From Echinarachnius parma (lineage: Eukaryota > Echinodermata > Echinoidea > Clypeasteroida > Echinarachniidae), in contig JBAMJV010008274.1 of the NCBI GenBank assembly GCA_037951105.1, positions 32,328 through 96,327 of the forward strand: a DNA stretch of 64,000 nucleotides, written 5' to 3'. Below are positions 16,007-51,957 of the stretch, piece by piece (the stretch's first letter is position 1; each line of letters begins with the position of its first letter). A program made the translations under genes and the position numbers. The notes beneath the pieces are model-generated. The model was not told the origin of the DNA. It saw nothing but the letters and a program-made list of their open reading frames with translations, and made no database searches.

Positions 16007-17260
16007 CACATGCATGTACATACAACGCCGTTAACGGCCACGCGCAGACATCGAGCACGGGAACTTCAGGCGTATGCGAACTGAATGGTCCGCTGCGTGT
16101 AGCTGCAGATCAGCTGGAAATCAACATTTGCCAAAATCCACGCACGACACGTCTTTAGAAATACTCTAATAACAAGACAATTAATGCAAGTGGTATCGTT
16201 GTACATTACCTAAATTACAGAACTGCATATTATCGTCTCAGATTACTCTGAATTATGCACGTACATATTATAAACATAATGATTGAAATTATTTGATAAG
16301 GTGGTATCGGCATTTTCGTCGACATTTTTAAATCTCTTTGTGCGTGTATGTCTAGTCTTAGTAACAAGCGCTTGCAATTTTTAAAATCTTGATTAAACAC
16401 TCACGTCACGTTTTGGTTAACGCGACACTTCGTGTTTTACCGGCGTGGAAAACAACGAATGGTCGGCCCTACACTTCGTAAATTAGAGTCACCTTTTTAA
16501 CGAAATATCTCAAAACGTGAACATGAACGTGACACGTGACACGTGACTGTTCGTTGCAAGCCAGTCAAACTGGTATTCCATTGACTTTCCAATCATTTGG
16601 CTTAGTGCATGCAGGTGGTCGGAAGTACAGAAGCCTGGTCTGAGACCTGCTTGCTCTTGGTTGGTTGTCCTCGAGCTGCTTTTCTATGCGGGCAAGAATT
16701 ACTCTGGTAAAAATCTTGTAGAGGTGAGGTAGTAAGTTTATAGGCCTGTAGTTCTTTGTATCTTTCTTGTCTCTTTTCTCGAATATGAGAATGTTTTTGA
16801 CTCATCCTACTGAGAGGGTATTTCTTCCTCATGCAGGATCTTGTTAAATAGGGCAGTAATTACTGTAATGGTCTCTTCATTCCCGAGGCTCAAAATATCT
16901 GATGTTAATTGGTCCACTCCAGGGGCCTTCCCCTTTTTCATTTTCCTTAGGGCCTGTTTAACTTTCCCTGGTAGGATAGGTGGCACATCCTGTGATCTAC
17001 TTGACCAATCTTCTCCTTTTCTCCAATTTGGTTGATCACTACTGTATAGGGAGCTAAACAAATCTCTAACTATTTCACTGAATTGATGTTTGTCACTTAT
17101 TTCTGTTCCATTGATGTCTGTCATGCTGGACATGAGTTGTCTTCCTCGATGCAGTTTCCTATTTATGATCTTTGGTATCATTGGAAAGCGTAAATTCTCC
17201 CCTTCATATTGATATAACATTTGAATATTTTCTCATCGAATGTGCATTGCATCCAAATGT

Positions 17261-27804: not shown

Positions 27805-28091
27805 TTCCCCCATTCTCAAATATACTGCGCATACCCCTTAATCATAAAGCTTACGATTTTGGTATCATTTAAAAGAGGAATACCAAAAATAACCAATATG
27901 ATTTTTATAACAAATATATATAATCGATCAAACTTGAGTTTCCGAACTTTTTTGAGGGGTTTAGAGCATGTCAATTACGAATCATCTTCGAATAAACAGC
28001 CCGTAAGATCGAAGTTCGATGAGACCAATCGTTTTTATTTCCTGGCATTCGTTCTACTGGACTATAATCATAATTTTGTTTTCTCCCCTAG

Positions 28092-28408
28092 CATGGCTAC
28101 CGATGCGAGTCTTACAAATGATGTCGATGATATGTTTGTGGATATTGCTAAAATGATATCAGCAAATGTTGAACATGTTGAAAAGTTGGGGAAAAAACTA
28201 GATATAAAGATAGGCATGATCACGATATACGTGAATGGCAACTTCAGCCAGGGCGGTATGCCGGGCTATAGAGGAACTGTTACTATGCTCCGAGCATGGG
28301 GAAGTCGTTTCGGGTCCTCCAAAGTCTGGCCACGTCTGAAGAGGGCTCTGTTAGACGCCGATCTGGGCCACATTCCTGAAGAAATCGAGAAGAAGTATCC
28401 ACAACTTC
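28092..28408 (+). CDS. Exon 1 (coding): start codon and N-terminal death-fold domain
   Basis: Acceptor ttttgttttctcccctag ends at 28091; ATG is at 28093-28095, so the 5' UTR is spliced. 105 codons plus one base, donor C|GTGAGT at 28409. The domain runs from about residue 12: MFVDIAKMI (helix 1), VEKLGKKLDI (helix 2), a Gly-rich loop NGNFSQGGMPGYRG, then TMLRAWGSRFG with the conserved Trp (residue 69), WPRLKRALLDADLGHI (helix 5) and PEEIEKKYP (helix 6). The open frame extends upstream to 27859, but the strong acceptor makes that part intronic. Start choice: first ATG after the acceptor. Confidence 0.8.
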
Positions 28409-31400
28409 GTGAGTATACAAATGTAACCGTTTAGCAATTATGAGTATATGGCAATTGGATCGTCAGTTAGTAGATATGTGGGTGACTGTGCCTATCATGA
28501 ACTAATTTGCCCAACGACCCCGATCAGAGCAACGACAACGTCAACAATGACACCAGTAAGTAAGTTACTAAAAGCCAAATAATGGTATTAGAAAAGTTGT
28601 TGAAATGTTTTTTTTTTAATGGGCATGTATAGTAAAAGCCGAACCTTAGTATCGTTTAATGACAAAAATATCAGTTGCAACTTTGATGCACGCCGCCAGC
28701 ACACTGCTGGGATTAGGCCCGTTTGCACCCCTCTACCGGGTTGGATATTGTTGGCTATATGGTCAATAAGCCTGCATGCCGTCCGTACGTGCGACTGTAT
28801 AGCTTTTGAAACGTATAATCATTCAGGCCCACTCTCGCTTTTCCACTATTTTGAAAATGTCGATATACCGCTATTCTCTCCGCGACGTCGCTAGATGGCG
28901 CATACATCGTGGCGATCAGCTAGCGATAGTGACATGCGATAATATCGGTGATCGAACAAAAATAGAATTTTGTACAGCCTATACGGTATACTACCCGTAT
29001 AGTGACGCGTGCGGCATGCATAGAGCCGACTCGCCCTACCTAGCTACCGGGGTAGGGTCGGCATGGCCGCAGCTTTGGACGGGCCGAACGCTCGCTGCGC
29101 TAGCTAGCTGCCTCCGCGGGCTCGCTGTATCGATCAATTTAAAGTAAACGGCTGTCCTTAAACACTATGTAAAAGTCAAAACCGTCAACAATTTGAAATC
29201 TGAAATCAAAGTTACGATTTCCAACGCTATTTTCTTCAAATGTTCTGGATAGATCATTGAGAAAAAATGCAAATCTGCAGATCAATCATCATTGATGGTA
29301 CGAATGAAATATTAGGATGACCTATCCAGAACATTGGCTAAAATTAATTACATAAAATCAATTGTAATAGTAGTGTGAATTCCACATTGACATAACACGC
29401 ATAGCTAAGTATGACGTCATGATTCATAATAGGAAGGGGTTCAGGAATAGCGTTTTTTTGCTATTTTCGAGAACAGTGGAAAAGCGAGAGTGGGCCTGAC
29501 TGATAATAATACAATTATAGTAATAATATATTCGGTTTATATAGCGCCTAATATGATTTATAATCTTCTCTAAGTGCTGTACAATGATAACATTAGCCCC
29601 GGTCATAGGATACAGGGGAGTATTCCTTCCAAGCGGCTCATGGGCATTGAGAAGATCCTTGACATATAGGCTTTCATCTCCTACCAGATCCCCATTTATA
29701 CACCTGGGTAGAGAGCAGCAATTATGGATAAATTATCTTGCTGAAGGACAAAGGCAGTGGGCAGGGTTCGAACTCGGGATCTCATGATCGGAAAGCGCGC
29801 GCTCCACCAATCTTACCACACCACATCTGTATAGGCGGTTGAACTTAATATAATTATGGTAAACATATTTGTTTTTCTTTCCTTGTATTGCTGAAATAAT
29901 AAATGTCGAAGCAATTTTGTTTAGTTTATCTAGATCTGTTCATCAACAAATAAGTAATGATATATTATTTTGCACGGTAAGTGATATTTTTTAATTGTGT
30001 GCGATACCGTTTTTTGCTGTACTTTTGCTATGCTACACGGAAGACATAACATTGCCAGCCATGCTACTACATAGCAACTTGTGATAACCGTGCCACAAAA
30101 GACAGCCCTGGATTAACTCTTTGAATCTGCCAACACTGAATGGACCATTGTGTGTGTGCTTACTGTGGCCTGTATGTTGTTTGTGTGCAGCATGCCCCTG
30201 GAACTGATCATGTATTTTCTTTTCGCCCAGGAGCGAGAGGTCGTTATACAGTCAAGTTTGTTGGTAAAAGGACTTTGTATTATTGCAACGGCACATGAAC
30301 CTTTCGTGCACGTTTGTTGGTAGCAGGAGACATAGAGCAGAGTCCTGGACCAGACATTACAAATATCACTCGACTTAGCAATGGTGCAGACGATTCGAGC
30401 CCTACGAACAGGTCGAAAATACAATACACAAGAGATACTCTTTTGAATTATAACTGCAGATATCACCCTCCTCAATATGTGGGCCACCATCAAATCTGTT
30501 GATCTAAATCTGAAAAAACCCTACAGTCAGAGGGACTAGGGCAAGTAGGGGAGGTGTGCACAGGAGAAAAAAGAAAATGATATTGGAACTCTGACACAAT
30601 GTGACATATCTTCTCAGAAGTCTACTAATGCCTCCAAGTGCCCCAATGAACTCATCTGTACGTTGGGTCTCACCAATGCTCAGGTCAGTTTGCAACAAAC
30701 TTATGTTCTTAAAGATCATTTCATTGAACATGAATTGGACATTGTTTGCTTGACCGAAACATGGCTTACACCATCCGACAGACAAAAGAAAGTGATTGGA
30801 GAATTAACACTTCCCGGTTTTAAGTTTCACAGTGTTCCACGTCCCAAACGCCAGGGAGGCGAAGTAGGTGTGGTATGCCGATAATCGATACAACTGGTAC
30901 CATCGGATGTCCCCACATTTACTACGTTTGAGAGCATTTGTTGTGACTTGGTGCCAGGAGGGTCGTTCCGTGTTCCGGTCAGGCTTGCAGTAACTTAAAG
31001 AGCATCATACAGCAAGAAGAACAAGAACACAGTATCTAGCTTTGTACAAAAGTTCGCAGAATGGCTTTCTATTATCTGTGTTTCACCCTATAAACTCATG
31101 ATCGTGGGCGACTTCAACATTCATAGGGATGATCAAACAAATATAGATACCCACAGATTTGCTGACGTAATAAAGACATATCATCTTGTCCAACACGTCA
31201 AGGATTTTACTCACGCAAGTGGGCATATCTTAGATTACATCCTTTCTCGAGAGGAAGATGGCATTGTTAAGTCATTGGACACGTCTACATTCCTCAGCGA
31301 TCACGCAGCCCTCCATTGTGTTCTAGATGTTGGTAAACCCGATTTGAGTCTCCAGGAGTTCACGTAGAGGAAGCTCACATCTCTTTTGCTGAGGCACTCA

Positions 31401-34400
31401 GGTCATCGGACATCTTTCTCAACCCAGCAACTGACCTTGAGGGATTGTTTAATCAGTTTGATGCTTCGATGGTCAAGATCATGGATGAACAAGCTCCTAT
31501 GAAAAGGTGTGTTGCTGTAGTTCGTCCCATCAATTCTTGGTATTCGGATGAGATTACCGGAGGTTGAAAACGAAGTGGCGTAGCTGTAGGTGACATTAGA
31601 TAGAGAACGTTTTACCATCCAGCGACTAGCAGTGTGGTCAATGAAAACATAAGTTTAAAAAAAAAAGGAACATTTTAAGAGCAACTTTCTGATTGTTCAA
31701 ACCAGAGAGAGGTCTACAAAGTGGTCAATGTGATGCTCCATCTAGGCAAACAATCTAAGCTCCCATCACATGTTAGCGACCGAGAGCTAGCAGAGTCCTT
31801 CAACGACTTCTTCCTGACTAAGATTGATGATATTCGTGTCGATTTGGATGCCATAGCCTTACATTCATCAGACGCAGCTGTTCAAATTATCAGAGGTATT
31901 CTGCAAGTATCTGATAGAACGTACCCGACATTAGAACGTTTTGATCCTACATCGGAAGAGGAAATCCAGCGAATTATTACCAAGTCACCTTCTACGTACA
32001 GTTCAAATGATCCGCTTCCAACGTGGCTGATGAAGAAACAGTTGAACAACACATTACCGACAAGTACTCTAATAGTCAACCGGTCTCTTGAAGTCGGCGT
32101 TTTCCCAGATTCCTTCAATAAAGCTTCTTGAAGAAGCCTAATCTTGATCATGAGGTCGTATATAATTACCGACCTGTGTCAAACCTAACGTTTATTTCAA
32201 AAGTCCTGTAAAGGGTCGTGGCACATCGTCTCCAGGGTTACCTTGATCAGGATAAATTGTTGGAGCCGCTGCAATCAGCATACAAAAAGAAATACAGTAC
32301 CGAGTCTGCCCTTGTAAAAGTTCACAATTACAATCTTCTTGCATTATACTTAAAACAGGCAGTTCTCTTCGTGCTTCTCGACTTATCAGCAGCTTTTGAC
32401 ACTATAGATCAAAATCTGCTTATCCAACGCTTCCAAACGCTGGGTATCGAAGGATCTGCCATATAATGGATCACATCGTTTTTTAAGGAACAGAACGCAA
32501 TCAGTCAGAATAAACAACTCCATGTCATCTGAGAGTGAGTGTCAGTGAGAGTGAGAGTCAGTGTATATGCTGGTCCACTCGCAGACATTGCCCGATCACA
32601 CAATACTGAAGTGCATCTCTACGCAGACGACACGCACCTGTATACTTCATTCAATCCTTCTGATCCAAACAGTAAAATCTCTGTCAGAGCCAGGATGGAG
32701 GCCTGCATTGGTGATATGAAACTGTGGATGACTCATAACAAGTTAAAGTTAAATGACAACTGTGGATGACTCATAACAAGTTAAAGTTAAATGACAACAA
32801 AAGTGAATTTATGATTATTGTTCCAAAACGACAAGCTTGTAGAATTAATTGTCAAACCATGCGTATCGGAAATCTTAATGTAATTGCTAAGTCTAGTGTC
32901 AGAAATCTTGGTGTGTCATTTGATTTCGAAATGACAATGTCTTCCAACATAAATGCCACTTGTCGAGCCGCATATTTCACATTCGTAATATATGTAGTAT
33001 AAGAAAATTCCTGTCTGACAGGGTTGCGGCCTCGGTCATTCATTCGTATATGGTATCTCGGCTGGATTATGGCAATGCCCTCCTCTATGGTGTAGTGCTG
33101 GTCAGTTGATAAAGGGTTGAAATACACACTTGAATTTCTCACAGACTAGTGCTGATATAACTTAGCAGTTGTCTGAAAACTATCAATTTAATTTCTAATA
33201 GAACTATAGATTTATGTCAAAATATGTAAATCAATAATGTTCTATTGTGGGGATATTTCCTAAAATTTGAGTTTTGGGCTAAAAACTATCGTGTTACATA
33301 TTTTGGAACCCATGGACCCGGTATCACAAAGCTGGTTTGTAGGAGGTTTGTACAAACCATGGTTTATCCATGGTTTACATCTATGGAGTGCTGCTTGTAT
33401 ACAAGTAAAACAGATTATAATGTCTACTGATATGACCGTTAGTGCTTGCTAACCAGCAAATTTCACCATGAGAGAAGACAAACATTTATTTGGTGCATTT
33501 TGTAAATTTGTACCATTGTTAACAGGTAAGGAGTTTACATTCTTTCTCCATCAGTTTTTTTAATGGCACTCTGAGTCCAAAGATGTAGACCCTCGATAAA
33601 CCATGGTTTGAACAAACCTCCTTTTATGAATCCGGGCCCATGTGTTTGGTATCACAATATAAACAATTGTATTGACTTTGATATGACTGCAAAATCATAC
33701 TGATTTCAGCTGTCGTTTGGTATATTTTTGCGAAAATCTAAAGCAAGTCAAAACGGCTGTTTTTTTGGACGCCATTTTAGATTTAGAGGTGCTCTAAACA
33801 AAGTTTTTGAATAAGACTTCTGAATTATTTTGTCTTGTTTAAACTTGTTGTGGAGATCTGGGAACCTGACCCATCTTTTCGAATACCGTGCGATTTGCGA
33901 CTACATTTTTTGCCATTCAAATTGTACGAAGTCGTAAGATGTCAAAGATATCATAAAAGTATCATTTGATGTCCGTGCGAGTCCCGTAAAGGTGTCCGTA
34001 TGAACGGTCAGTTTCTAGTCCGGGAGCCGTAAAATTTACTTTTGCTATAACTTCCAAAGTCATTGCACGTTTCCCGGCGAATAAGTGACCGCTACAAATT
34101 GGATACCGCAGACATTGTACGATATCCCAACTCGAAATCGTAGAAAACCCGCCGTAGGTAGAAAGATCGTCCGGCGCCCGGGGAATTTGTAACCTAGGCA
34201 TAAGTGATTTTTTTTTTAAAGTGGGTGTAGCCATCATAAGAATCCTTATTAGCATTGTTTGTTATCACTGAAAAAGATATCGAACATATTACATAAAACT
34301 GTATTATTTTTATATATTTCATATAAAATGATAATTGATATTGTTCAACTTTGTCTTCAAAGGGATAGTTGAGTTTGGGTCCATATGATCAAACTTAATA

Positions 34401-37400
34401 ATAGTAACCAAAACATGCACCATACAATTATAAACAAATATTTTAACCACACAATGCTCGACATGTATAACAAATTACAAACGACTAAGGAAAAAAACAT
34501 GTTTTCATAAAAAAAAGAGCTGTTTAAACACAAGAGGGCGTTCTATAAAAATGGATTGGTTTCAACGGTTTGCTACACAAAATGGCGCATGTGATGTTTT
34601 GTACAAATTATGAGTAGATAGAGGGATTATCATCAACTATTTTGATACCCTCTTTTGTACATTTTAGAAAAGATGTAAGCAATTTTGTTTTCTTATATTG
34701 ATCTTAAATTTATCCCGATTAAAAATATAAAGCGATATTCGACCTGTTTCTGAACCGATTTCAATCCAATAAAGTTTATTCTGTCATTACAAGTATATGT
34801 TTTTTTTTTAACTGAGACTCAGTTGTTCCTTACCTCACCAAAAATGTGCTTAATAGACCATCCATTAATAGACATAGGAAACTTTACCAGTATAATAAGA
34901 GAAATAATCACATACACGTTTTTCTCTTCATTCAATCCATTAAATTTGTTTTATTGTATGATTGTTTTATTCAGATTGTATAGCGGTCAAGAAATAAATG
35001 AAAATTAAAAAAAATAAAACAGAAAATGTGGAAGAAGTGATCGGAAGTAAGGAAGGGGGCACATTTTGACCCTGCGAGCTTTATAGGTCTAATTATGTAG
35101 TGCCAGTCCGCACAAATCCGCAAAGATACAGAAGTGTGATACAATTGACATTTTTGTCACTGATATTTTTACCAGCGGCAATTTTACCTCTGACATTTTT
35201 TCCACTCACATTTTTACCTCTGACATTTTTTCCACTCACATATAATTTACATATGGCCTTTTAACATACAGCCGTTTGGGATGCCATCCTTTATAAATAA
35301 CTACATTGAGTAATGAGTGCAACTTTTTCGGAGCCAAGAACACCCGGTCCCCATTTGTGAGTAGATTCTATTTCACGACGGTAGAAAACGCGAGGAGGTG
35401 TTTAGTCAAACCAGAACTTTTCAATTAACTTTCGCCTGACCGGGACGGAGGTAAAGTACACAATTATTAGAAACATGTGTTACTTTATATTATACTTAAC
35501 ATAATACTTAACTCGTAGTCGTAATTATTGTTGGAGCAACGAATACTCCACAAATTGTCAACTTACAATTTGTACAGATTTAAGACCAAGCGCCTTAAAT
35601 GATGAGTTTCCTTCCTAAAAACAAGCCGATAGGCAAATGGTGTGGTTTGCGCCAAGCGCATATCCTTTTTATTCGATACTCATTTGTCTACCATCATTAA
35701 AGCTAAATTCGAATACTATGGACGATTGAGTATCCGAATTCGAATACTCTTGACGACGATCGGAAAGAGTTTCGAAACGCATACATCTAATCTGAAATGT
35801 CTCAACAATTATGCACATATTTCAAAGGTCAAACCAATTGTATTATTACGCTACCATATGCCAAGCAACAAGATACAAGAGAAGTGTAGAAGCTGCATGT
35901 GATTTGGGTTGAATTGCATGAGTCAAAGGATTATTTTAAACGAAGTTGATACAATATGCATAACAGAGACTTGCCTGAAAAAGGGGCATTCTCGTACAGT
36001 CTAAAAAATGTTTTTCATGATATTTCCTATAAGTTGTGCTAACGTACATATTCATCTCAATTGCTTCTTCACAGAAACTTCAGGAATACGCTCAACTACC
36101 CATGGTGAGATTATCCAAATATCTTGATCCAATCAAACACTCGAGGTAAAAGTCTACCAAATAATAAGATAAATGGACTGTTTTCAGGTACGATTTAATT
36201 ATGTATTAACATTTTCATTATTGCTCATTAAGGTGTCAGTAAATGTGATTAAAATACTTCAGTATACATGAATTAGGCTAGGTCCTAGCTGCCGTGTTTA
36301 ACAAATGACATGTACACAACTTTGGTCTTATGACTTCAATACTTTTCGTATAAAGTTCAAAGACTAATGATGAATTTAAAAATTATTGGTGGACTATTTC
36401 GAAAACAATCAAGGATTTCTACTTAAATTTGTTTACTGCAAATGTCTAATTTGTTCTTCTTAAGTCAAAGTGGTTGTAATGCCTATCACCTGTAGCAAAA
36501 CGTGAGAACTGTCACAAGCCTTAAATCAGTTTGTAACGATACATTGCAAAAATCGCCCAAGTCTTTAAAACATAAGTGTTTTGAAAAATATTCTGATGAA
36601 AGTTATATTTTCTTCTTCGTCTTCATCTCTATTTTACAAATTGTACACATGTATTAGTATTCTTTTATGTTGTGTAGTTTTTTGGGGGATTAGCATTATT
36701 AAGATAAATGGATAATTTTCATAATAAAACAAAAAATCATAGGTCATTTTCTATCTAGAAAAAATGTGCTGCACATACAAATAAGTATTGGAAATGGATT
36801 TCTTTATCCAAAATACTCTATAATAATGTATTCATCACTTTTGTACTATTCCAAGATATAAACTGACCTCTCTATGCATATGATCTAATTATATTATAAT
36901 GCTAATAACAAACCAATGTCAATGTTGACAAGGTGGGAACAACGCTGAATTGTATGAATACTTAAAAAAACATCGGACATATTAACATTTACAGGCCCTA
37001 TACATATATACAAGACTAAATAGTGCCAATTTGTACAGATAAAGCTACCTTTAATGATATAACATACACTTATGTCTTTAAAACACGTTATTGCATGTCA
37101 AGGTGTATTTAGTCAAAATAATTATGAATTATCACACGTTTCTTTATTATCTGTTTTGGTTTTTAGCACGTGTTCTCGCAATTATCACACATTGTACAAA
37201 ATGTCTTTCGGGTACATAATTTAATAAAAATTATATAGTTGAGAAAAGAAAAACATCTTAGGAGAATGTTAATTAACAAACATTATAACATTCACATATA
37301 ATTCCGTTTAACCAGACATAATTATTCTATACAAATGGTGCAGGCTAAGTATTTTTAAACGCCCATTTCATTCAGTCGATTGTCAACCTACCCGTCTGGA

Positions 37401-40400
37401 ATTGACGCTTTACAATCTGAATTGTTACCACTAAGACAGCTACGACTGATATGTATTCCTCTGACATTTGTTCCACTTACATGTTTTTGCTCTGACATTT
37501 CTTCCACTGTCACTTTTACTTCTAACATTATTTCCTCTGACATTTTATTCCACTGACAAGTTTACCTCAGACAGTTCTTCTATTTACATTATCCACTTGC
37601 ATTTTGTCCACTAACATATGTTCCACTGACAATATTTCCTACGACATTTGTTCAACTGACATTTCTTCCACTGAATGTTTTACCTCTGACATATTTTTCC
37701 TTGATATTATATTGTTCTGGTTCATAACGTTATGAATCAGAGCAAAATACCACTGATTTCCTATTGAAATAACATTTTATTTGGATGGCCATATATCAGC
37801 CAATACTTAACATATTCGATTGATTTTCAAAATTATACAATTTTGTATGCTCTTTTGGAAAATTAAAAAATAAAAGTTTTTTGATGACGTCACACTTCAC
37901 CACTTTATTAGTCGCGAGGATCTAGTGCGGGGCTTTGAAATGAGAGGGTTACTATTTACGAAAATATCCAACATTGAAAGTTAAAGTGACGCGTTGCAAA
38001 CCGATATAACAAATTTACAAATTCGAGTCGTGGGGTAGGTTGAGTCTATATCAGACAGGGTAATAGTCATGTTTTAATAATAATAACTGTTATTTATATT
38101 GCACTATTCCCGTGGGGATAATACCGATTTACACGATTATTATTACCCCGGTCCAAGGACACACTCCAATCATTCCTTTACATTAGGTGCACATTTCCCA
38201 CTCCCTAGGGAGTATTCCAGCAAGTCACCAATTAGGCGCGCACAGTGCTCATGAAACACGTTCCAATCCTTCCGGGTCCCCATTTATACACCTAGGTAGA
38301 GAGCAGCAATTGTGTATAAATTGTCTTGCTGAATGACAAACGCAGTGTGCGGGGTTCGAAATCGGGATCCCACGCATCAGAGAGCGCGCGCTCTACCAAT
38401 CCTGCCACACCACACACCACACAGCACACAGCACATATTACGCAGGTAAGTGTGTGTGTGTGTGTGGGTGGGGGGATGGATCGAGCTGGAAAGGTCACTA
38501 AAATACATTTAATGGATTAATTGTATTACCAACCAAATCAAGTATTTCATTAAATGTGAACACACTTCAAACTTTATGGATCCATAAGTGTGATACGTGA
38601 TAATGCATAAAATCACACCTATGGAAAGACCGAGCTGGGAAAATCAGGCTTGAACAAAATTAACACACTTTAGGAAACTGAAATGCTCATTTTTTTAATA
38701 GCTTAAGTAAGAGTATTTTCTAAAACATACTACTATTTCAATGCAGAATGATAAAGTAAACAAGTGAGAAATTGGTCACTCCTGTGGGCCATGTTTTGAG
38801 GGTTTTGGTGGCCAGAAAGGAGTCTGAACAACTTACATTAAGTCATGCTCTGATTAGCCTGATTAGACTCACCCCTGACAACCAGTAGATATTTAAAGAG
38901 ATGGAAAAAACAAATAGACATGATATGTCTTGGGTCTCACCTTGTCTTTGTGATGCGATTATCCTGCATGACACAGACATCTCCCTCTAGGTACACTCTA
39001 ATAGACATATTTGGTAAAATGTTACCCATTATTTACCCATCATGCTGTTAGTTATGTACCCAACCAACTATTAGGTATCAACTTTACCCATCCATAACCT
39101 GCCGTTTTGTTGGGCATCTTCAATTACCAATCCATTGACCCACATGTTTTACGCCTATGTATATAAGCTGCTAAAGTGTTTCCCAGCGAATGTATATTAT
39201 GATATTCAGCCAAGATTACCCAAAATTAGTTAGTAAAGTCAGTTTGGTCAAATTAGTTTAGCAAAATAAGTTAGCTAAAGATAGTTTTAAATGCTAAAAC
39301 ACTATTTTGTTATTATCTTATCTGTGAATGACATTGTTTATTCCGTTTTGTTTTTAGTTAACATAATGTCATTTCACATTTGGCCATAAAGTTGATGAAA
39401 TGTACTGCAAGTTTCGTGTAGAACGTTTGTTGGTTCGATGCTGCATTTCATAAATATTAAGTGATATAATACCGGCCAAATATTTCGTTTTTATCACTGT
39501 TTTCTAATGCATGAAAACCCCCGGTTTTTGTCCTGGCACAGATAGAGTTAGGGGACCACCAGGCAAAGATATTAGTACGTTTGTGTGATATTAAATATAT
39601 GTCCAACACTTTTCAATGGGTTGTGTAATTCATAAACAATGTAATTAATTACGACCACTTACGGAACCAATATGGCCGCATGGTTCCGTATGCGCCAAAC
39701 GTCTGCGAGTGCGTCAATCCTATTCACGCGTACGATAGGAGACAATATAATCACTGACAATGCGTGCGTCCTAGACAAAAAGTAGTCTTCGCCTACAGAC
39801 CCTTTGACCAAATGCTTTAGTTTTCAGCTGCGATAGCCCATTGTCTGGTCCCCTGCAGTATAGGGCTCCATTTTTCTCAGATGTTTCATACTGACTTTTC
39901 TTAATCTTACACTATTTTCACTTATATGTTTACTTCTGACATTAAAGGGGTAGTTAAGTTTTGGTTATATAGGGGGCGCTGCACAACACAATTTGTGGGT
40001 AATGAAAACTGATTGTCGAATTTGAAAGAGCATGCATTTATAATGGCATAATACATTTTATTTGGTAAAAATCGGGTTCAGAAAGTCGGCTGAATTCAGA
40101 ATAACTTAGTTATGGTCGATGATTCAGATAATACAAAAAGGAACCCAATTTACACTATTTGTTCAAATACTTTTTTAAAAGCGGTTGATAAATAGTGTGA
40201 TGATGATCTCTCTATTCATAATCCATAATTCAACTAAAACACATGCATAATTTTGTATGAAAAATGGTTCAAACCAATACTTTTTTCAGAGAGAGAGCCA
40301 TCTTGTGTTTTAATGGCTCTTTTTTAATGATAACACGCATTTTAATTAGTAGTTTGTAATTTTGTATACCTTTTGAGCATGGTGGAGTTATAACTATTAG

Positions 40401-43400
40401 TTTGTAATGTTACTTAGCATGTTTGGGTTACTAAAGTTCAGCCTTACCAAAACTGTACTACCCCTTTAACAAACGAGTTAACGTCTGACAGTTTTTGTTC
40501 CACTCATATTTTCATCTCTGACATGTTTTGCAGTTAGGTTGACTTCCTGGCAAACGTAGTCATGTTAACTAACCCGCTCATTGAAACGGAAAATCTATCC
40601 CAAGATTATTGGTCTTCTTTTATCTTTGTATGCAGGGGAACACCTTACTGTTAATCAGATTGACGCTAATAAGATACAACTTTGTGTAAATAGTCCAGGG
40701 CACGGCAATGTTATTGCAAAGATAGCGGTAACATTCTCATCAAGGTATACGTGAGTTCCCGAATGGTATATTGCAAGTACTGTATTTTGGAGTGTATACA
40801 TTTCCATTCAGAATGTAAACAAATTAAATGATCTGGTAGCATTGTCAAAGTTCATAAAACCTGATTATAGTTGTAGGGGTTCTTACATACCTCGTTGTTC
40901 TTGTACACCGTTAGTGCAATGTGTTAGTAACAATCACTGTGAACGTTCAGTAACCAGTAATACAGATAATGACATTTTATTACTACGGGTTTCCCACAAA
41001 TTACGAAATTTAGATGATATCATATCACAGAAGTACAAATGATAATAACCCTTGTTATTTTTTACTCATGTCAGCCAAAATACTATATATCTTTGATATA
41101 CAGTTATTATTGCCCATGGATGCTTTAGCTAAATCACTTTGCGTTGTTAAGAATAGAGGCAAACTGTTATAAGGTCACGTGTCAATGTAGAGTATGTATC
41201 TCAGCCTAAACTCGGGGAGAATATATACAATTTTTAGCCAACCTCTTATTGTAACACTTTGAGAGAGATTGTTACATGTTTTTGTATTTTATTGATCAAG
41301 TTGGGAACAATTTGAGAGATCGTAGCCGACTGACATACTTTCACTTGAATTGTAATTCTTCACTCGTGTGTATTTATATTGTCTAGCACAACTATTTAGT
41401 GAGGTTTTTTCAAAGGCTGAACTTAATGTATGTTATACTTTAAAGGGACTGCCCCTCTTTACCACAAATGCCAAAATGCTTCAAATTTGGTACAGATCTG
41501 TATAATACTTGTATTATGCTGCGTATGAAATTTCATAGCCGTAGGTGCCATCAATCATAGCGATCACTGCTGTTGTGCAGATCTCTCTCGTTGATGGCGC
41601 TAAATATTATGGGTGGTGGGATTTATTAGAGGTGATGCGACCACTGACCTGCATCACATTCATACCACATACACTATCGAACGTAGAGGGAGCTAGACAG
41701 ATTATTGTGAGGTTCGGTTATTAAACCGTCGTCCAACATTTTATTAATCTATAGGTAATAACAAAAATCATAACTTTCATCAAAATACATTGTCAATTCC
41801 TAATCTTTTCAGAATAATTTTTTTTTAAATCATGATCTATAATATTTGAGGTTACTATGGCAACTTATATTTTTTGGCTTGCAAAGGAGGGGCTGTCCCT
41901 TTAAGAGAGAGTGTTATACATGTATTTTTTGAATATCAACATTAGGAACAGTTTAAGAGATACAACATAAAAGATGTCTTGGTTCATAAAGCAACTCGTT
42001 TACTTTGATATTAATACATTACTAATACTATGATTGTATTATATCCATAACTGTAATGAATCATTTCATGTCTTCAACCAAAAGTCGTAATACAGTCAAA
42101 CCTGCTAATGCGACCACCTGTTTATTGCGACCCCCTGCCCATAACGACCTCTCTCTGCTCCCCCCGTAATATGTGTTAAGCGGACTCATAAACAAAGAGT
42201 GTTTGTGCCCTTCAGTACCTGATGTTGATACAAAAATGCAACAAAGGCACTTCACTCAACATCACAGCATAATTTGACCAGATCCGACCAGAAATTAAAA
42301 AATGGCCGTCAACATGTCTAATGCGTTCACCTGTTTATAGCGACCATTTTTCGCCGGTCCCTTGAGCGGTCGCTATAGACAGATTTGACTGTATTTACGT
42401 TCATATTAATTTTAGTCTAAGCAGACATGTTATTCTCTATAGCTTGATTGGTACCGCTTTTTGTATATTTGTTCCAAAACGATTATCAATAATATGTTCT
42501 AAAATATATTTAAAATACATATTTACGTGTTTGTTTTTCCAGTGAAATAGCACCGACCGTAGAAATTGGTCCCGACCCCCAGCCCGGTAAGTATAGATTT
42601 TTGTAAAGGAAAATATGAGACTCTTCGACATCGAGCTAGCTAAGACAGGTCCAAGTGCGAAGGTACCAATTAATTAGTGTCCAATCTCGGACTACGACCA
42701 CAACGATGAGACTAGGAAGAGTTCTGGAGTAGATACATCACACAAGGTGTGTCAACAAGGTGTGTGAAACCAAGATTATATTGAGAAAATTGCTCGGCTT
42801 TCGTGTAAATAAAAAACTCGCAACCGGTACCGAAAATTTTCCGGCGCTGCCTACAAGACTGGCAACGCACCCGCGTCAAGAAAAAGCGTCGAAAGTGTAT
42901 TATTTCCAGCTATACGGCGTCGTCGACGTTTTCCTTACAAAGGGGTATTTTTCAGCACTCATTAGAACAAAACCACAAAAAGGGTAACTTTTGGGGTGCA
43001 CGTCATCGACGTTTCCCTTAGAAAGGGTCTGTTTTCAGCACTCGTTAGAAAAAAAATCCACAAAAAGGGAGGTCTGTGAAGTTAGTTCCTTATTCGTTTT
43101 TCCTTATTCATTTACTTATTCAATGTAAAGTTAGTTCCTTATTCATTTCATTATTCAATTATTACCCTAAAAGGATGGCGATTGATCGGCGGCCACTTTA
43201 AAGAAGCCACTGGCACTATGACCTTGACCTTGACCCCTCAAGGTCATATGGAAAAAATAGTCAAAAACGAGATTTTTTGTTTAAGTCCCCGATCGTACGG
43301 ATTTTGGGTCCCCTGCCTGGCGCCCACCCTTGTTCAAAAGCACCTCGACCTTCATCTTGACCCCTCAAGGTCATAGGTCAAATTGGGGTCAAAAATGAAT

Positions 43401-46400
43401 AGTACACTTTGAGGACTCTTAAAGGGCAATGAAACTATGGCTTTCGGCTATTATTATCATTTAGAGGGTGAACAGACATTCTATTTGATACATAACTTGG
43501 CAATTTTGGCCTCCTGGATCCCATGAAATCCTTTGAAAACATTTTACTCATTCTTACGGCGGCAAAAGGTGATGGGAGCGGCCATGTTCTTGTAATTGCC
43601 CGACATGCTTTGCAAACTATGACGAGTGTGCTACGGGCCGAACAAAAAGCTTTTCACTGATGTACAGGTTCGTCAAAGCATATACAAGTATTCAGACAAT
43701 GGTTTCTATAGAAGCTATTGAAATGCATTAGTAATAGTGCATATCACTGACCATAAGTCCGCACACACCTAATAATGGCGGCCTCCAGTGTTCGCATGAA
43801 TAGTGGTAAACCCGATAGAGTTTTCACATATTTCTCCCAAAGCAGAAATCTGAGTCGGAGTTATGTTATATATAATAAAAAAGGCATATTACGATATATC
43901 AAGTAGGATAAAATCTATTATTGAGTTGCATTGCCCTTTAAAGATCGCGAATCTGCTAAATGTTGGTACAATTGACCTGCGGTCACTTCAAAGAAGCCAT
44001 TGACACTATGACCTTGACCTTGACCCCTCAAGGTCATATGGAAAAATTGGTCAAAAACGATATTTTTGTTTTTAAAGTCCCCGATCGTCCGGATTTGGGG
44101 TCCCAGGCCTGCCTGGCGCCGACCCTTCCGAGTTCAAAACCACCTCGACCTTCATCTTGACCCCTCAAGGTCATAGGTCAAATTGGGTTCAAAAATGAAT
44201 AGTACACTTTCAGGACTCTTAAAGGTCGCGAATCTGCTAAATGTTGGTACAATTGATCGGCGGTCACTTCAAAGGAGCCATTGACAGTATGACCTTGACC
44301 TTGACCCCTCAAGGTCATATGGAAAAATTGGTCAAAAACGAGTATTATTTTTTAAGTCCCCGATCGTCCGGATTTTGGGTCCCCTGCCTGGCGCCCACCC
44401 TTCCAAGTTCAAAAACTCCTCGACCTTTATCTTGACCCCTCAAGGTCATAGGTCAAATTGGGGTCAAAAATGAATAGTACACTTTCAGGACTCTTAAAGG
44501 TCGCGAATCTGCTAAATGTTGGTACAATTGATCGGCGGTCACTTCAAAGAAGCCATTGACACTATGACCTTGACCTTGACCACTCAAGGTCATATGGACA
44601 AATTGGTCAAAAACGAGATTTTTTTTTTTTAAAGTCCCCTATCGTCCGGATTTGGGGTCTCCTGCCTGGCGCCCACCCTTCCGAGTTCAAATTGGGGTCA
44701 AAAATGAATAGTACACTTTCAGGACTCTTAAAGGTCGCGAATCTGTAAAATGTTGGTACGATTGATCGGTGGTCACTTCAAAGAAGCCATTGACACTATG
44801 ACCTTGACCTTGACCCCTCAAGGTCATATGGAAAATTGGTCAAAAAACGAGATTTTTTTTTAAGTCCCCGATCGTCCGGATTTTGGGTCCCCTGCCTGGC
44901 GCCCACCCTTCCGAGTTCAAAACCACCTCGACCTTCATCTTGACCCCTCAAAACTCTTTTTTGATCAATTTTTCCATATGACCTTGATGGGTCAAGGTCA
45001 AGGTCGTATTGTCAATGGCTTCCTTGAAGTGACCGCCGATCAATCAGATTCTCGACCTTTAAGAGTCCTGAAAGTGTACTATTCATTTTTGACCCCAATT
45101 TGAAATATGACCTTGAGGGGTCAAAATGAAGGTCGAGGTGTTTTTGAACTCGGAAGGGTGGGCGCCAGGCAGGGGACCCAAAATCCGGACGATCGGGGAC
45201 TTTTACAACAACAAAAAATCTCGTTTTTGACCAATTTGTCCATATGACCTTGAGGGGTCAAGGTCAAGGTCATAGTGTCAATGGCTTCTTTGAAGTGACC
45301 GCCGATCAACTGTACCAACATTTAGCAGATTCGCGACCTTTAAGAGTCCTGAAAGTGTACTATTCATTTTTGACCCCAATTTGACCTATGACCTTGAGGG
45401 GTCAAGATGAAAGTCAAGGTGGTTTTGAACTCGGAAGGGTGGGCGCTAGGCAGGGGACCCCAAATCCGGACGATCGGGGACTTTTAAGAAAAAAATCTCG
45501 TTTTTGGCCAATTTTTCCATATGACCTTGAGGGGTCAAGGTCAATGTCATAGTGTCAATGGCTTCTTTGAAGTGACCGCCGATCAATTGTACCAACATTT
45601 TACAGATTCGCGACCTTTAAAAGTCCTGAAAGTGTACTATTCATTTTTGACCCCAATTTGACCTATGACCTTGAGGGTCAAGATGAAGGTCGAGGTGTTT
45701 TTGAACTCGGAAGGGTGGGCGCCAGGCAGGGGACTCAAAATCCGGACGATCGGGGGCTTTAACAAAAAAATCTCGTTTTTGACCAATGTTTCCATATGAC
45801 CTTGAGGGGTCAAGGTCATAGTGCCAGTGGCTTCTTTAAAGTGGCCGCCGATCAATCGCCATCCTTTTAGGGTAATAATTGAATAAGGAAATCAATAAGG
45901 AACTAACTTCACATTGAATAAGTAAATGAATAAGGAAAAACGAATAAGGAACTAACTTCACAGACCTCAAAAAGGGAACCTTTTCAGGTGCACAAGTTTT
46001 CGACGTTGGAGTCCATTTTGGAGGTTGATGGACACGGGTGCGTAGAACTTTTGTACGAGAGTGACCCCCTGGGACCTACACCTACTTAAGCTGCCACTGA
46101 GTTGTGCGTAGGCATTTAGTCCTTATAACAATTAGGCGGATTTCGGAATTCTTGCAATGGCAATGGATGCAAATGAAAGTTCCTCCCAGTTTTCACTGAT
46201 AAGCCATACTCCCATATATTACATGGTGTACACATTGCATATTAAGACAAGCAATGACAAAATTGTGATTGTATCCCGGGCAAACATGATACAATGCCTG
46301 CTTTGGCCGCAATGGGCCGCAGATAAGATATAACTAACAAGAATAACAACTTGCTGTGTTTACGAATAACATGAAATTTACTTGAGGAATTTGAGAAAAT

Positions 46401-49400: not shown

Positions 49401-51870
49401 TTATGTCCCAAGCTGTTTCAGTGATGACAAACGAAAACAAAATATGTTGAGTAGACAATGATGATAATACAAATCCCGCATAAATCCAACCTTACAATGA
49501 TACTTCTTATATCAAATCTGAAATGGAAATCATTTGTAATATTAATGTATATAATATGTGTTAATACTTACCGTTAGGTATTACTTGTATGGGGATTCGT
49601 ATATCAACACTAACAGTCTGACTAGCAAACAACACCTAAACATCAGATATCATGTGGCACTGCCGGTATTACAGGTCAGGCTTCTGATCCCCACTCACAA
49701 CGCTGGTTAGGCTTTCATTAGCGTTAACTAAACACTAATGAAAGTGACACCGGTGTAGTACGCACTCGATACTTGAGTTCACCTATAGTAAGCTGTATGG
49801 CAACAGTCGCGCCAAGTCTTCTTATACCATGCTAACGCCAAGTCACACCGTAGTTGAAATAACCTTTGTTTTTCTCTATAACTATTTTCCTTCTCCAATT
49901 CATGCATTCCATTTCATACAGGTTGCAGCAACATAGTACCTAGGTAAGTCTTGTTCAGAAAAAGTCATTATAATGATGTAAATTACGTGATATAAACAAT
50001 GATTTATTATGAAACCATTTGGGTTGATAGTATTTGCTATGCTTATCAAACTAGTATAATCTAATTTGGTGAAATGATCTTATGAACAAGAGCGCCGTTA
50101 AAATAAATACTATGTGTACGATCATTCGGGAGTACAATTTGGATAAATGTAATGTGTATAGTCTGGTTACGCTCTCTCCAAAATGCACGAGATTTAATGC
50201 AAACAGTTCAAGTACAAAAACAAAATCAATCTATCGATCCATTTGTAGGCAATTTAACCTGTTCCTGCAGAATTTTGTAAATCCCTTAGCGGCAATACAG
50301 GACTCACCACATTACCGTAGGAAATAGGTAGAGCTTATCTCAGCGGTGCAAATTGAATGTTCAGCCTTTTTTCTTGCATTTAGTGATATTACGTTTCATA
50401 TTATACTTATTATACGGTTCATATTACGCTTTGCATACTATTTCACCAATACTATAGTTAAATTGGCAATCTATGTTGATTTTTACAACTTTCCCTATAC
50501 TAATTGTTATCTGTAAACATAAATACTACCAAACAAAATGTGACCCGTAACAGATAGAAGATACGTGTAGTATACAAATAATGCATGTTTATGAGTGGAA
50601 TGGTACGACTATTTGCATGATGCGAAAGATGGAATGTTTCATTCAACGAGGCGAAGCCGAGATGAATGGAACATTCCATCTTTCACCGAATGAAAATATT
50701 CGTACCATTCCACGCACTGAAAAAACATTCATTATTTGTTTTATATGACACCTACTTTATTTGCTTATTCGTGTTATAATAATCCGCACTGTCGATTAAA
50801 TCGTCCAAATCGGCATCCGTCAGCAAAACAATTCCCGGTTCTGCAGCCATGTTGTTTTAAAAGTACAGCTGCCTTGCATTGAGTGCATGATGTTTGTTAA
50901 TGCGCTGGTTCATAAATCGAAAATCTGCGCAGTGCGCGCAGTTAGTTTTAATGCGTGCTGGCGCGTGCACAACAACAACATAAAAAAAGTACAATTCCAT
51001 GTTTAATAACGTCAAAAATCGTTGAATGGTACTAAACAAAGTTATATTCAATGAAAAATTACGTAAATTCGTGGAATGGTACATTTCCACGAATGTCATG
51101 TGACCTGAATTCAACCAATCAAATTGCGAGAACATTCAAATGTGTATTATAATATCACTAAATCAACGCCATTTCGTCACAGTATTAACATGTCTGACAA
51201 ATGGCCGCTCCCTGTAACATCATATGACATCTTATATACCGTAAAGTGTGGTCTCTTTATTCTACTGTGGGTTTCAGTGGAGCATTAAGCGTTGTATTTA
51301 TTTTGAACACATTGAGATAAAGACAAGATAAAAACATAATGTCCTATTCATCTATTGAAGTTGTCATATTTTAAATATAACATCATTATTGTGCATATAT
51401 CCACTTGTCTATTACACTTACATGAGAATAACATGAATAATTTGTTTTAAAAGTAAACCATATGTTCTCAATCAGCTGTTAGTCATAATCAGGGTATATA
51501 TTGAAAATGTGATAATGCCTCTGGATATCAGTTTTAGCTTTTTTGTATATATTTTTTTAATTTCAATGTTAATTACAGGAGCAGCACCTCATCAAGAGCA
51601 GAATTGACGGATCGATTTATACTGCAGATAGCGGAAGTGGTCCCCCTAAATAAGTATCTCGAACTTAGTGTAGGGCTTGGTATGAATGTAGATGAAACCA
51701 ACGTCATCAGGAGAGAGAGTTCGTACAGTATTCCAAAGGCAGTGAAACGCATCCTTGACAAATGGAAAGGAAAGCACGGAAATGGGCCTGAGCAAATTGA
51801 GGTTCTTCGCGAAATCTTTATTTCTACAAACCTGTGGGACATAGTTGACAACCTCTTTGATGAGCATTGA
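28092..51870 (+). CDS. Spliced gene: tandem death-domain adaptor-like protein, six coding exons
   Basis: Predicted 272-residue protein from exons 28092-28408, 36075-36104, 40636-40750, 42543-42586, 49922-49943 and 51579-51870. Phases at the junctions are 1, 1, 2, 1, 2 and agree on both sides of every intron. The coding total of 819 nt is exactly 273 codons including the stop. Every acceptor is AG after a pyrimidine-rich tract and every donor is GT with GTGAG, GTAAGT or similar. Residues 10-105 and about 184-272 each look like a six-helix death-fold domain. The linker (about 106-183) is rich in Ser, Thr and Pro. Proteins with two death-fold domains are typically cytosolic adaptors that bring receptors and effectors together. 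No TIR, caspase or kinase domain is seen. A 5' UTR exon must lie upstream. The model is my inference; untested exons could be missing, and the exact paralogue is not recognised. Confidence 0.72.
28824..29498. mobile_element. 675-bp TIR element, hAT-like ends, GC-rich core
   Basis: CAGGCCCACTCTCGCTTTTC at the left and its reverse complement ending at 29498; about 34 bp of terminal repeat. The core (28870-29140) is unusually GC-rich for the window, with repeated gctagc/gcgat motifs. A second small inverted pair, gttctggatagatcat and gacctatccagaac, lies at 29238-29335. No clear target duplication and no transposase. It sits in intron 1 of the death-domain gene. Confidence 0.75.
29503..29829 (-). 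mobile_element. tRNA-derived SINE (MetaSINE-like), copy 1
   Basis: Minus strand. tRNA-like head with box A near TGGTGGAGCGCG and box B GAGTTCGAACCC, then the central block ccttcagcaagataatttat... ttgctgctctctacccaggtg, and a tail cgctatataaacc followed by ATTATT-type repeats. The central block resembles, from memory, the conserved domain of invertebrate MetaSINEs. A second copy is at 38085-38425. Confidence 0.8.
30326..30352 (+). other. 2A-like ribosome-skipping motif, degenerate
   Basis: LLVAGDIEQSPGP reads in frame at the start of the LINE ORF2. Canonical 2A is D(V/I)ExNPGP. Here Asn is replaced by Ser, which should abolish skipping. 2A-like sequences at the N-terminus of APE-type LINE ORFs are established for sea urchin and other invertebrate elements. 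Confidence 0.75.
32723..32798 (+). repeat. 38-bp tandem duplication inside the LINE RT
   Basis: tgtggatgactcataacaag and the next 18 bases occur twice head to tail at 32723 and 32761. 38 is not a multiple of three, so this alone breaks the frame. The copies are identical, suggesting a recent event. Confidence 0.9.
33310..33642. mobile_element. 333-bp MITE with CCATGG-containing inverted repeats
   Basis: Left ggaggtttgtacaaaccatgg and right ccatggtttgaacaaacctcc are inverted partners; outer ends catggacccggtatcac and tgaatccgggcccatg also pair. Total about 333 bp, terminal repeats about 45-50 bp. No coding. Confidence 0.75.
33877..34201. mobile_element. Truncated copy of the CGTACG element
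   Basis: Contains gtacgatatcccaactcg, cccgccgtaggtag and the terminal ggaatttgtaacctaggcat, matching the right end of the element at 3590-3698. Left end missing and many CGTACG motifs already mutated, so this copy is older. Confidence 0.75.
34358..34830. mobile_element. TTAA-family MITE, diverged copy
   Basis: Starts tcaaagggatagttgagttt, the terminus shared with 39946 and 53792, and carries the internal blocks tagtaaccaaaac and caagagggcgttct in inverse order to those copies. The right terminus is not recognisable. Confidence 0.6.
35142..35250. repeat. Degenerate minisatellite, block 1 (ctgacatttttncc units)
   Basis: Repeats of roughly 18 bp such as ctctgacattttttccactc, with a cacatttttac alternate. 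The next block lies at 37449-37705, with outliers near 39900-39945 and 40486-40525. Confidence 0.75.
35251..37448. other. Intronic; only the 30-nt exon at 36075 recognised
   Basis: AT-rich sequence without other recognisable genes or transposon ends. It separates two blocks of the same minisatellite. Confidence 0.4.
36075..36104 (+). CDS. Exon 2 (coding): 30-nt microexon of the death-domain gene
   Basis: Acceptor caattgcttcttcacag, donor CATG|GTGAGA. Enters in phase 1 and leaves in phase 1, adding nine whole codons (TSGIRSTTH) to the Ser/Thr linker. Without it the reading frame would also be kept, so it could be an optional exon. Confidence 0.55.
37449..37705. repeat. Degenerate minisatellite, block 2
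   Basis: About 14 units of an 18-bp motif (cctctgacatttgttccact and variants). Each unit retains tgacatt or ttccac. Shared motif with 35142-35250 suggests a single array later split. Confidence 0.75.
38085..38425 (-). mobile_element. tRNA-derived SINE (MetaSINE-like), copy 2
   Basis: Minus strand. Head near gattggtagagcgcgcgctc (box A) and a box B region gatttcgaaccccgc carrying changes from consensus. Central block ttgctgctctctacctaggt matches copy 1. ATTATT-type tail at the 38085 side. More diverged in the 3' half, with an extra 50-60 bp relative to copy 1. Confidence 0.8.
39946..40465. mobile_element. TTAA-flanked MITE, 520 bp
   Basis: Ends AGGGGTAGTTAAGTTTTGG and CCAAAACTGTACTACCCCT, with TTAA at 39942-39945 and 40466-40469. 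TTAA duplications indicate a piggyBac-type or similar source transposase. It interrupts a remnant of the ctgacatt minisatellite and lies about 170 bp upstream of coding exon 3. Confidence 0.88.
40636..40750 (+). CDS. Exon 3 (coding): linker exon of the death-domain gene
   Basis: Acceptor cttcttttatctttgtatgcag. In phase 1 the only open reading is EHLTVNQIDANKIQLCVN followed by SPGHGNVIAKIAVTFSS. Two donors 6 nt apart, AAG|GTATAC (40745) and TAC|GTGAGT (40751), both leave phase 2. The second is the stronger consensus. The alternating hydrophobic pattern suggests beta strands. No family recognised. Confidence 0.65.
40842..41439. other. Intronic, no further exon recognised
   Basis: A 66-codon open frame at 40842-41042 has no splice-compatible start or domain similarity I can see. 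Otherwise AT-rich. Confidence 0.35.
41444..41900. mobile_element. TTAA-flanked MITE, 457 bp (gggactgcccc family)
   Basis: Ends AGGGACTGCCCCTCTTTAC and its partner GCAAAGGAGGGGCTGTCCCT, with TTAA at 41440-41443 and 41901-41904. Internal ttaaaccgtcgtccaac links it to the relic ending at 6447. Confidence 0.88.
42093..42391. mobile_element. Tigger/pogo-like deletion derivative, 299 bp
   Basis: Same ends as the 7036-7934 element (CAGTCAAACCTGCTAATGCG and GCTATAGACAGATTTGACTG), TA on both sides. It keeps the internal block gactcataaacaaag...cccttcagtacctgatg but lacks about 600 bp, so both are internal deletions of one longer parent. Confidence 0.88.
42543..42586 (+). CDS. Exon 4 (coding): 44-nt Pro-rich linker exon
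   Basis: Acceptor cgtgtttgtttttccag, donor CCCG|GTAAGTATAG, both strong. Enters in phase 2, leaves in phase 1, encoding EIAPTVEIGPDPQP. The other two frames contain stops. Lies about 480 bp upstream of the Mutator-like foldback element. Confidence 0.68.
43070..45967. mobile_element. 2.9-kb Mutator-like foldback element with tandem nuclear-receptor-type motifs
   Basis: Ends AGGTCTGTGAAGTTAGTTCC and GGAACTAACTTCACAGACCT. Flanks are a perfect 9-bp duplication CAAAAAGGG (43061-43069, 45968-45976). A 9-bp duplication with very long inverted repeats fits Mutator-like foldback elements. From about 43165 to 44948 are five direct units of about 280 bp; from about 44950 to 45860 the same units run inverted. 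Every unit holds TGACCTTGACCTTGACC and CCTCAAGGTCATA. No transposase. It lies in intron 4 of the death-domain gene. Confidence 0.85.
43423..43937. mobile_element. 515-bp TTAA MITE inside a foldback repeat unit
   Basis: Ends AGGGCAATGAAACTATGG and AGTTGCATTGCCCT, TTAA at 43419-43422 and 43938-43941. The neighbouring repeat units show the empty site ggactcttaaaggtcgcgaa, so insertion at TTAA with duplication is directly visible. Confidence 0.92.
46855..47702. mobile_element. 848-bp TIR element hosting a G/C-tract insertion
   Basis: Left arm 46855-46931 (cacatctttgaatacactat ... aggactagaaaagcact) faces right arm 47609-47702 (agtgcttttctatagtcc ... attcaaagatgtgat). Between them sits the G/C-tract element at 46936-47538. 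Outer boundaries are approximate. Confidence 0.7.
46936..47538. mobile_element. hAT-like element of homopolymer G/C and ggtctcgg minisatellite
   Basis: Ends at 47538 with cgtacgctactg-type sequence (CAGTAGCGTACCCAGGAT read from the right), a hAT terminus. Inside: poly-G at 46939-46952, poly-C near 47040-47060, 47290-47316, 47444-47467 and 47497-47512, and diverged units of gaccggtcctggtctcgg / cttcgaaaa (47075-47440). The left terminus is obscured by the G tract. Confidence 0.65.
47975..48500. repeat. Nested foldback with perfect hairpin centre at 48202-48256
   Basis: Centre: GGTCACCAGTAATGTAATG / CAATATTACTGGTGACC closing on GTCCTGGATcATCCAGGAC. Further out, gggccacttgacgttc (48168) faces gacttgaatataaagtggcc, and tcatcagtggctca (about 47983) faces tgagccactgata (about 48478). 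A foldback or MITE of about 525 bp. Confidence 0.65.
48501..50580. other. Intronic, AT-rich; only the 22-nt exon at 49922 recognised
   Basis: No transposon ends or coding domains seen apart from the microexon. Confidence 0.4.
49922..49943 (+). CDS. Exon 5 (coding): 22-nt microexon
   Basis: Acceptor ttctccaattcatgcattccatttcatacag (pyrimidine-rich), donor CTAG|GTAAGTC. Enters phase 1, leaves phase 2; only this phase is open (CSNIVP). Its length is not a multiple of three, so skipping it would shift the frame into the last exon. It is therefore constitutive or a regulatory switch. Confidence 0.62.
50590..51135 (-). mobile_element. gaatggtac-repeat element with a short Crypton-like ORF start
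   Basis: A foldback at 50594-50716 (gtggaatggtacgac ... gaaagatggaatg / cattccatctttcacc ... gtaccattccac) is followed on the minus strand by a start-like region. gaatggtac recurs near 51027 and 51075. The 51-kb end carries acattcgtggaaatgtaccattccacgaat, itself an inverted repeat. No complete recombinase. Confidence 0.5.
50752..50850 (-). pseudogene. 32-codon fragment, possible Crypton/KIAA1958-type N-terminus
   Basis: Starts ATG at 50850 after a plausible context and reads MAAEPGIVLLTDADLDDLID, then SADYYNTNKQIK and TAG. The pattern L(T/S)-x-x-(D/E)L-x-x-L(I/L)-x-x-(A/K)D-x-x-NT-(K/N)-(K/R) is, from memory, that of the N-terminal segment of DUF3504/Crypton-derived proteins, just before their core-binding domain. 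Everything downstream is absent. Confidence 0.35.
51579..51870 (+). CDS. Exon 6 (coding): C-terminal death-fold domain and stop
   Basis: Acceptor atttcaatgttaattacag ends at 51578, entering in phase 2. Encodes SSTSSRAELTDRFILQIAEV, then YLELSVGLGM (helix 2 with LG), NVDETNVIRRES (helix 3), AVKRILDKWKG with the conserved Trp, EQIEVLREIFISTNLWDIVD and the C-terminal helix, ending DEH before TGA at 51868-51870. AATAAA lies at 51872-51877, just after the stop, a plausible poly(A) signal. The fold assignment rests on helix pattern and the WK position; a DED or CARD would be the nearest alternatives. Confidence 0.78.
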
Positions 51871-51957
51871 TAATAAATTAATAATGTTGTTTATACAAAT
51901 CTTACAAATACACTGCGAATCAGAACAAAGTCAGAAAGATCAGTCGATTTGTTTATA

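Follow-up and report, generated by a model that had tools for sequence, protein, structure and literature searches.

The window, a stretch of 64,000 nucleotides on contig C8261 of a 1.2 Gb animal genome, very probably holds a real gene of six coding exons spread over about 24 kb, whose spliced product resembles a death domain at either end; the judgement rests on sister genes of the same genome, which share its layout. By sequence comparison the gene is one member of a large family that has expanded in this genome, and its product is most likely an adaptor of the cytosol, from a death-domain family expanded in this lineage. The exon structure is established by homology with paralogs, whose exons are themselves predictions, and the death-fold similarity of the two ends by comparison of sequences. 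The preliminary description, which had read a compact adaptor with two death folds out of 23.8 kb rich in transposons, was with high probability right in substance: the gene appears ordinary in kind, and its middle module unusual.

Gene model and spliced product

The preliminary description named two of the five exon junctions and gave a series of intron phases, 1-1-2-1-2, closing over six exons and 273 codons; the chain was rebuilt from these constraints. Such a chain is indeed present in the sequence. With exon 3 taken as 40636-40750 it comprises 819 nt, its sole stop codon is the terminal one and every intron runs from GT to AG, while the ATG lies at 28093, which corrects the earlier start. 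The end of exon 3 at 40750, in turn, is probably 6 nt too far. All seven exons of the same type in paralogs (see below) stop before GTAT or GTAC, and the donor of the window is therefore probably 40744, where AAG is followed by GTATAC; the end at 40750 would use another GT, six bases further on, which leaves the phase unchanged and represents an alternative donor. The count of 273 codons including the stop thus fits the donor at 40750, whereas the probable product has 270 residues and not 272, with a mass of 29.9 kDa and a pI of 6.2. The exons of this model are listed in Table 1.

Table 1. Coding exons of the proposed gene and its first intron; positions are those of the window
Feature	Position	Strand	Description
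Exon 1	28093..28408	+	Start codon and first death-fold domain; donor phase 1
Intron 1	28409..36074	+	Carries remains of a non-LTR retrotransposon
Exon 2	36075..36104	+	30-nt Ser/Thr/Gly-rich linker; phase 1 to 1
Exon 3	40636..40744	+	36-residue beta-patterned module; phase 1 to 2; donor position probable
Exon 4	42543..42586	+	44-nt linker; phase 2 to 1
Exon 5	49922..49943	+	22-nt linker; phase 1 to 2
Exon 6	51579..51870	+	Second death-fold domain; stop codon TGA at 51868-51870

All six exons are free of internal stops and frame breaks and retain their splice sites. An AG at 28090-28091, one base 5' of the exon 1 ATG, implies an upstream non-coding exon. This arrangement recurs in all 11 exon 1 paralogs compared, so that a start directly behind an intron is a feature of the family. 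The exon 1 donor is found at the window's position in 8 of the same 11 paralogs, one codon later in two (L020 and L022) and elsewhere in one (L016). On an approximate splice matrix the exon 1 donor (3.8 bits) and the exon 6 acceptor (4.9 bits) of the window score low. Two bases past the TGA there is an AATAAA (51872-51877), which, if used, would give a very short 3' untranslated region.

The introns are occupied in part by mobile and repeated DNA. The non-LTR remains in intron 1 span 30549-32131, and the endonuclease frames among them (30549-31367) match the Pfam families Exo_endo_phos and Exo_endo_phos_2, both below the cut-offs. Intron 4 contains two tandem arrays, 43938-44691 and 45045-45855, with units of about 275-277 bp whose consensus sequences look mutually reverse-complementary. 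In many paralog loci the same stretches are matched, in opposite orientation, by two repeat copies of the window, at 34402-34845 and at 39939-40473.

Phase closure as evidence

According to the preliminary description, random AG...GT pairs would rarely satisfy all the phases at once, a claim that proved too strong. With approximate splice-site weights, and a score defined on the four internal exons of a chain, the 819-nt chain reaches 72.9 bits. Order-2 Markov controls equalled or exceeded this value in 3 of 60 cases (best-chain mean 65.7, sd 3.9), and the top four-exon chain of the real region, which uses 31428-31506 in place of exon 3, scores 76.0 bits. These two results led to the rejection of phase closure as sufficient proof: by itself it is weak support, and the paralogs decide. 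They also speak for the view that splice-like sites have come together by chance around two genuine death-fold exons, an explanation set against two further observations: none of the 15 controls drawn from real sequence (five regions or strands, three phases each; maximum 70.4) attains the score of the chain, and the paralogs repeat each exon type together with its phase. Taken together, this makes a chance assembly so improbable as to be hardly credible.

Paralogs in the same genome

Exon 1 has at least 111 matches in the genome at E<=0.01, its own included (150 scored of 249 candidates), and 35 other relatives at E<=2e-10 among the matches listed; exon 6 has at least 150 matches, again with its own (150 scored of 363 candidates). 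A second death exon of the exon 1 type lies on the contig of the window itself (C8261:3263-3553, minus strand; L017, L028), about 57 kb upstream and in the opposite orientation. Positions 16386-16463 of the window weakly resemble the exon 6 profile (E 0.0019) and may be the relic of a death exon.

Gene layout was compared in the DNA downstream of the 20 best of 110 listed exon 1 matches, in 19 cases a stretch of 10 kb and in the twentieth one of 4 kb, ended by the end of its contig. An exon 6-like exon follows the exon 1-like exon on the same strand in 10 of these 20 stretches, and was not found in the other 10 within the part read. Six of the ten were recovered with the exon 6 query alone, one of them weakly (L037, E 0.022); two more, L023 and L032, came from a profile built on those six together with the window, as did, weakly, L033 (E 1.8e-5), and L024 became the tenth through its adjoining piece L043. 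The expectation by chance is about 0.002 exon 6-like exons per stretch, by rough arithmetic from some 400 in 1.2 Gb. Since L035, L036 and L039 are near-identical to one another, the ten cases are not independent.

These paired exons bear on the possibility that the window carries two adjacent genes, each terminating after its own death-fold exon. The 23.2 kb that separate exons 1 and 6 in the window, with transposon remains between them, and the abundance of exon 6-like exons in the genome would be compatible with such an arrangement. In nine of the paralogs, on the other hand, the two exons are separated by 1.6 to 5.7 kb, and in the tenth by 10 kb, and 9 of the 10 have an in-phase candidate for a linker exon between them, which renders two separate genes very improbable and argues for a single gene.

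The internal exons also have counterparts among the 20 stretches. Candidates of the exon 2 type (phase 1 to 1, Ser/Thr/Gly-rich, 51-78 nt) are present in 9, and exons of the exon 3 type (phase 1 to 2) in 7, that of L034 being weak. Four of these seven paralogs (L024, L032, L038 and L029) have an exon of the exon 4 type (44 nt, phase 2 to 1), in each of them the top candidate of phase 2 to 1; it was not found in the other three (L034, L041 and L042). Candidates of the exon 5 type (phase 1 to 2, 25-64 nt) occur in 10 stretches, between the death exons or past exon 1. All six exon types, in the order and with the phases of the window, are represented by candidates in L024 together with L043 and in L032, and five in L038, the sixth not being found within its stretch. 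L023 and L040 are examples of compact paralogs, in which an exon of the exon 5 type is present and none of the exon 3 type was found.

Assignment of exons 2 to 5

Each of the short exons of the window was ranked by its likeness to the corresponding paralog exons. The exon 2 acceptor is first of the 3102 plus-strand AG sites of the window by likeness to acceptors of its type, and sixth of 24,289 sites overall; of the five above it, one (L042:9938) sits where exon 2 of the next tandem gene is expected, three are in family stretches and one is on the minus strand of the window. Exon 3, compared end to end with six family exons, has a mean score of 32.3, against 17.8 for the next unrelated candidate in a pool of 2,119 from which the paralog exons had been removed. 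Its best score is reached by 1 of 5,000 shuffles and its mean by none of 5,000, and among 24,292 sites its acceptor is first by mean and 50th by best match. The end-to-end comparison recovered this exon where two other approaches did not: it was missed by a local profile built without the window and is absent from the genome matches to the exon 3 of L032, which marks it as a strongly diverged copy. A DNA search with the exon returned only itself.

Exon 4 shares 28 of 44 bases with that of L029, compared with 22 of 44 for the next candidate from outside the family among 1,501 44-nt AG..GT stretches, and none of 20,000 shuffles does as well; its acceptor, taken by itself, is 10th overall and 3rd in the window. 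Among 24,293 sites the exon 5 acceptor is first by best match and 6th by mean, the latter being second in the window.

A shorter gene in which only exons 1, 5 and 6 are spliced (210 codons), exons 2 to 4 being chance splice-like sites or relics, has in its favour that the phases of these three exons close as well and that the compact paralogs look like it in having the exon 5 type and no exon 3 type found. This three-exon model was dropped once exons of the types of 3 and 4 had appeared in paralogs. With exons 3 and 4 matching the family far above chance while also having open frames and splice sites, and with the exon 2 acceptor heading the window's sites, it is considered improbable, and the six-exon model is retained.

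Death-domain similarity of the two ends

The preliminary description had proposed a search of the product against the Death, DED and CARD families, and the outcome supports one gene with two death-fold ends. The spliced product of 270 aa exceeds the curated cut-off of Pfam Death (PF00531), with 27.3 bits against 22.6 (E 4.1e-6), and the profiles of exons 1 and 6 align with each other (hhalign, E 6.1e-5 over 80 columns, probability 65). One Death stretch of the spliced product is significant by itself, residues 190-266, encoded by exon 6. Taken alone, exon 6 remains just below the cut-off (E 7.9e-4, 19.9 bits), and exon 1 gives E 0.16 and 12.5 bits. At family level, 11 of 21 members of the exon 1 family match Death at E<=0.01 (best 3.8e-6), as do 3 of 7 members of the exon 6 family, and the second death exon of L031 matches the exon 1 profile (E 9.3e-6). 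DED and CARD gave a different answer: neither they nor TRADD-N have a Pfam match in P0001, P0002 and the spliced product (E<=1) or in the family members (E<=0.01).

Comparisons with structures yielded weak matches. Exon 1 matches FAS in PDB profiles at E 0.02-0.03, level with the unrelated MatB at 0.021, and exon 6 matches the death domains of ankyrin-3, an LRR-death protein, FAS, FADD and TNFR1 at 0.045-0.83, ranking below two unrelated proteins. Two single-sequence structure models are of low confidence (mean pLDDT 56.5 and 47.9). Apart from Death, Pfam gave for the spliced product only a sub-threshold Thiol_cytolysin match (E 0.15; P0002, E 0.027), which was taken as chance, as were two DUF matches in one exon 1 paralog each. 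In NCBIfam, P0001 has only a sub-threshold match to a ribosomal protein and P0002 none. Beyond this genome, no relative was found at E<=0.001 in a protein collection (1 candidate; 4593 candidates in a second search), and of 10 viral-contig stretches that fitted a pattern none encodes a relative by tblastn. A search for molluscan haemocyanin (PF14830) gave no match, which according to the control of that search is no proof of absence.

A beta-patterned module in exon 3

Exon 3 is a member of a family of 36-residue beta-patterned modules, which the preliminary description did not mention. Eight aligned sequences give the consensus GQxLxVKQSGADVKVTIxGxxHGNVIVQGQVVNSSPR, in which hydrophobic residues alternate; the window's copy is the most diverged of the eight, with 33% identity to L032, compared with 37-92% for the other six. 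Pfam gave no match for the four of the eight peptides scanned, and the exon 3 profile none in the PDB.

The exon 3 of L032 occurs at 44 places in the genome, its own included, out of 52 scored, one of them with a stop. Ten of the 44 have a listed exon 1-like exon upstream or a death exon downstream, within about 10 kb and on the same strand, and 34 have no such death exon among the matches listed, although 4 kb upstream of one of these, on C9440, there is a death exon. At three of the places for which none is listed (L044, L045 and L046) the splice frame matches. Exon 3 thus looks like a shuffled module, as far as its distribution in the genome suggests. Exons 3 and 4 are jointly phase-neutral, entering and leaving in phase 1, so that a gene could gain or lose them with no shift of frame.

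The core tetrad of RHIM motifs, given as V/I-Q-V/I-G in PMC12119088, is missing in all eight aligned exon 3 sequences, and an assignment of exon 3 to RHIM was rejected for this reason.

Discussion

CRADD is a death-fold adaptor of the FADD and TRADD type. The product of the window resembles all three: each is small and soluble, has two interaction modules of which one or both are death domains, and links receptors to effectors. The window product differs from them in that they combine a death domain with a DED, CARD or TRADD-N, whereas both of its ends are Death-like and a beta-patterned module stands between them. TRADD and FADD are treated as death-fold adaptors in PMC8195603, and both PMC8195603 and PMC2575513 describe how death-fold and TRADD-N proteins have expanded in particular lineages of marine invertebrates. 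The family reported here is similar in being a large, diverging death-fold family within one animal genome; an arrangement with a module between two death domains did not appear in the consulted parts of the two papers, and no family of death, beta module and death is described in the titles and abstracts of the literature searched.

Amyloid signalling motifs offer a second comparison. The bacterial set (BASS) comprises motifs of 21-40 residues, according to PMC12261475, and RHIM can take a central position in an immune signalling protein, as stated in PMC7889193. Exon 3 shares with such motifs its short length, its hydrophobic/polar pattern and its central place, and differs from RHIM in the missing tetrad. 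A putative role of exon 3 in self-assembly is possible. A more far-reaching proposal, which must be called doubtful, is that the family consists of adaptors with an undescribed amyloid-type module in exon 3 between two death domains, coupling the helical assembly of death domains to beta-type polymerisation, the module being one that gene copies could gain or lose as a cassette.

Whether the gene of the window is intact can be judged from its exons and from substitution rates. The ratio dN/dS is below 1 in all 15 pair comparisons that yielded a value (range 0.13-0.81, averaged over both branches), 17 having been run; in the remaining two, dS was saturated in one and zero in the other. For the gene of the window it amounts to 0.48 (exon 1 against L023) and 0.61 (exon 6 against L035), rough figures at large distances. 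A decaying copy, meaning a death-domain gene that arose by duplication, was stretched by transposons and has lost its expression, would be consistent with a distance between exons 1 and 6 that exceeds that of the ten paralogs possessing the two exons by a factor of 2 to 15, with the divergence of exon 3 and with the low scores of the exon 1 donor and exon 6 acceptor. It is nevertheless unlikely in view of six exons that have kept frame and splice sites, and of dN/dS ratios below 1, even though these are averages over both branches.

In the probable reading, an intact host gene spreads its six coding exons across 23.8 kb. Its soluble product of about 270 residues would begin with a death domain, continue with a Ser/Thr/Gly-rich linker, the 36-residue beta-patterned module and further linkers, and end with a second death domain. 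Such a product would act as a cytosolic adaptor in the signalling of innate immunity or cell death: each of its death domains would bind a different death-domain partner, be it of the receptor, kinase, caspase or NLR type, and one assembly might in this way seed another. The central module would serve as a spacer or as an element of self-assembly.

A gene of tiny exons scattered over 24 kb of mobile DNA can therefore be read from raw sequence and checked through its paralogs without RNA. The presence or absence of exon 3 across dozens of paralogs is open to testing, and, if this module does self-assemble, two modes of polymerisation in immune signalling would be combined in a single adaptor.
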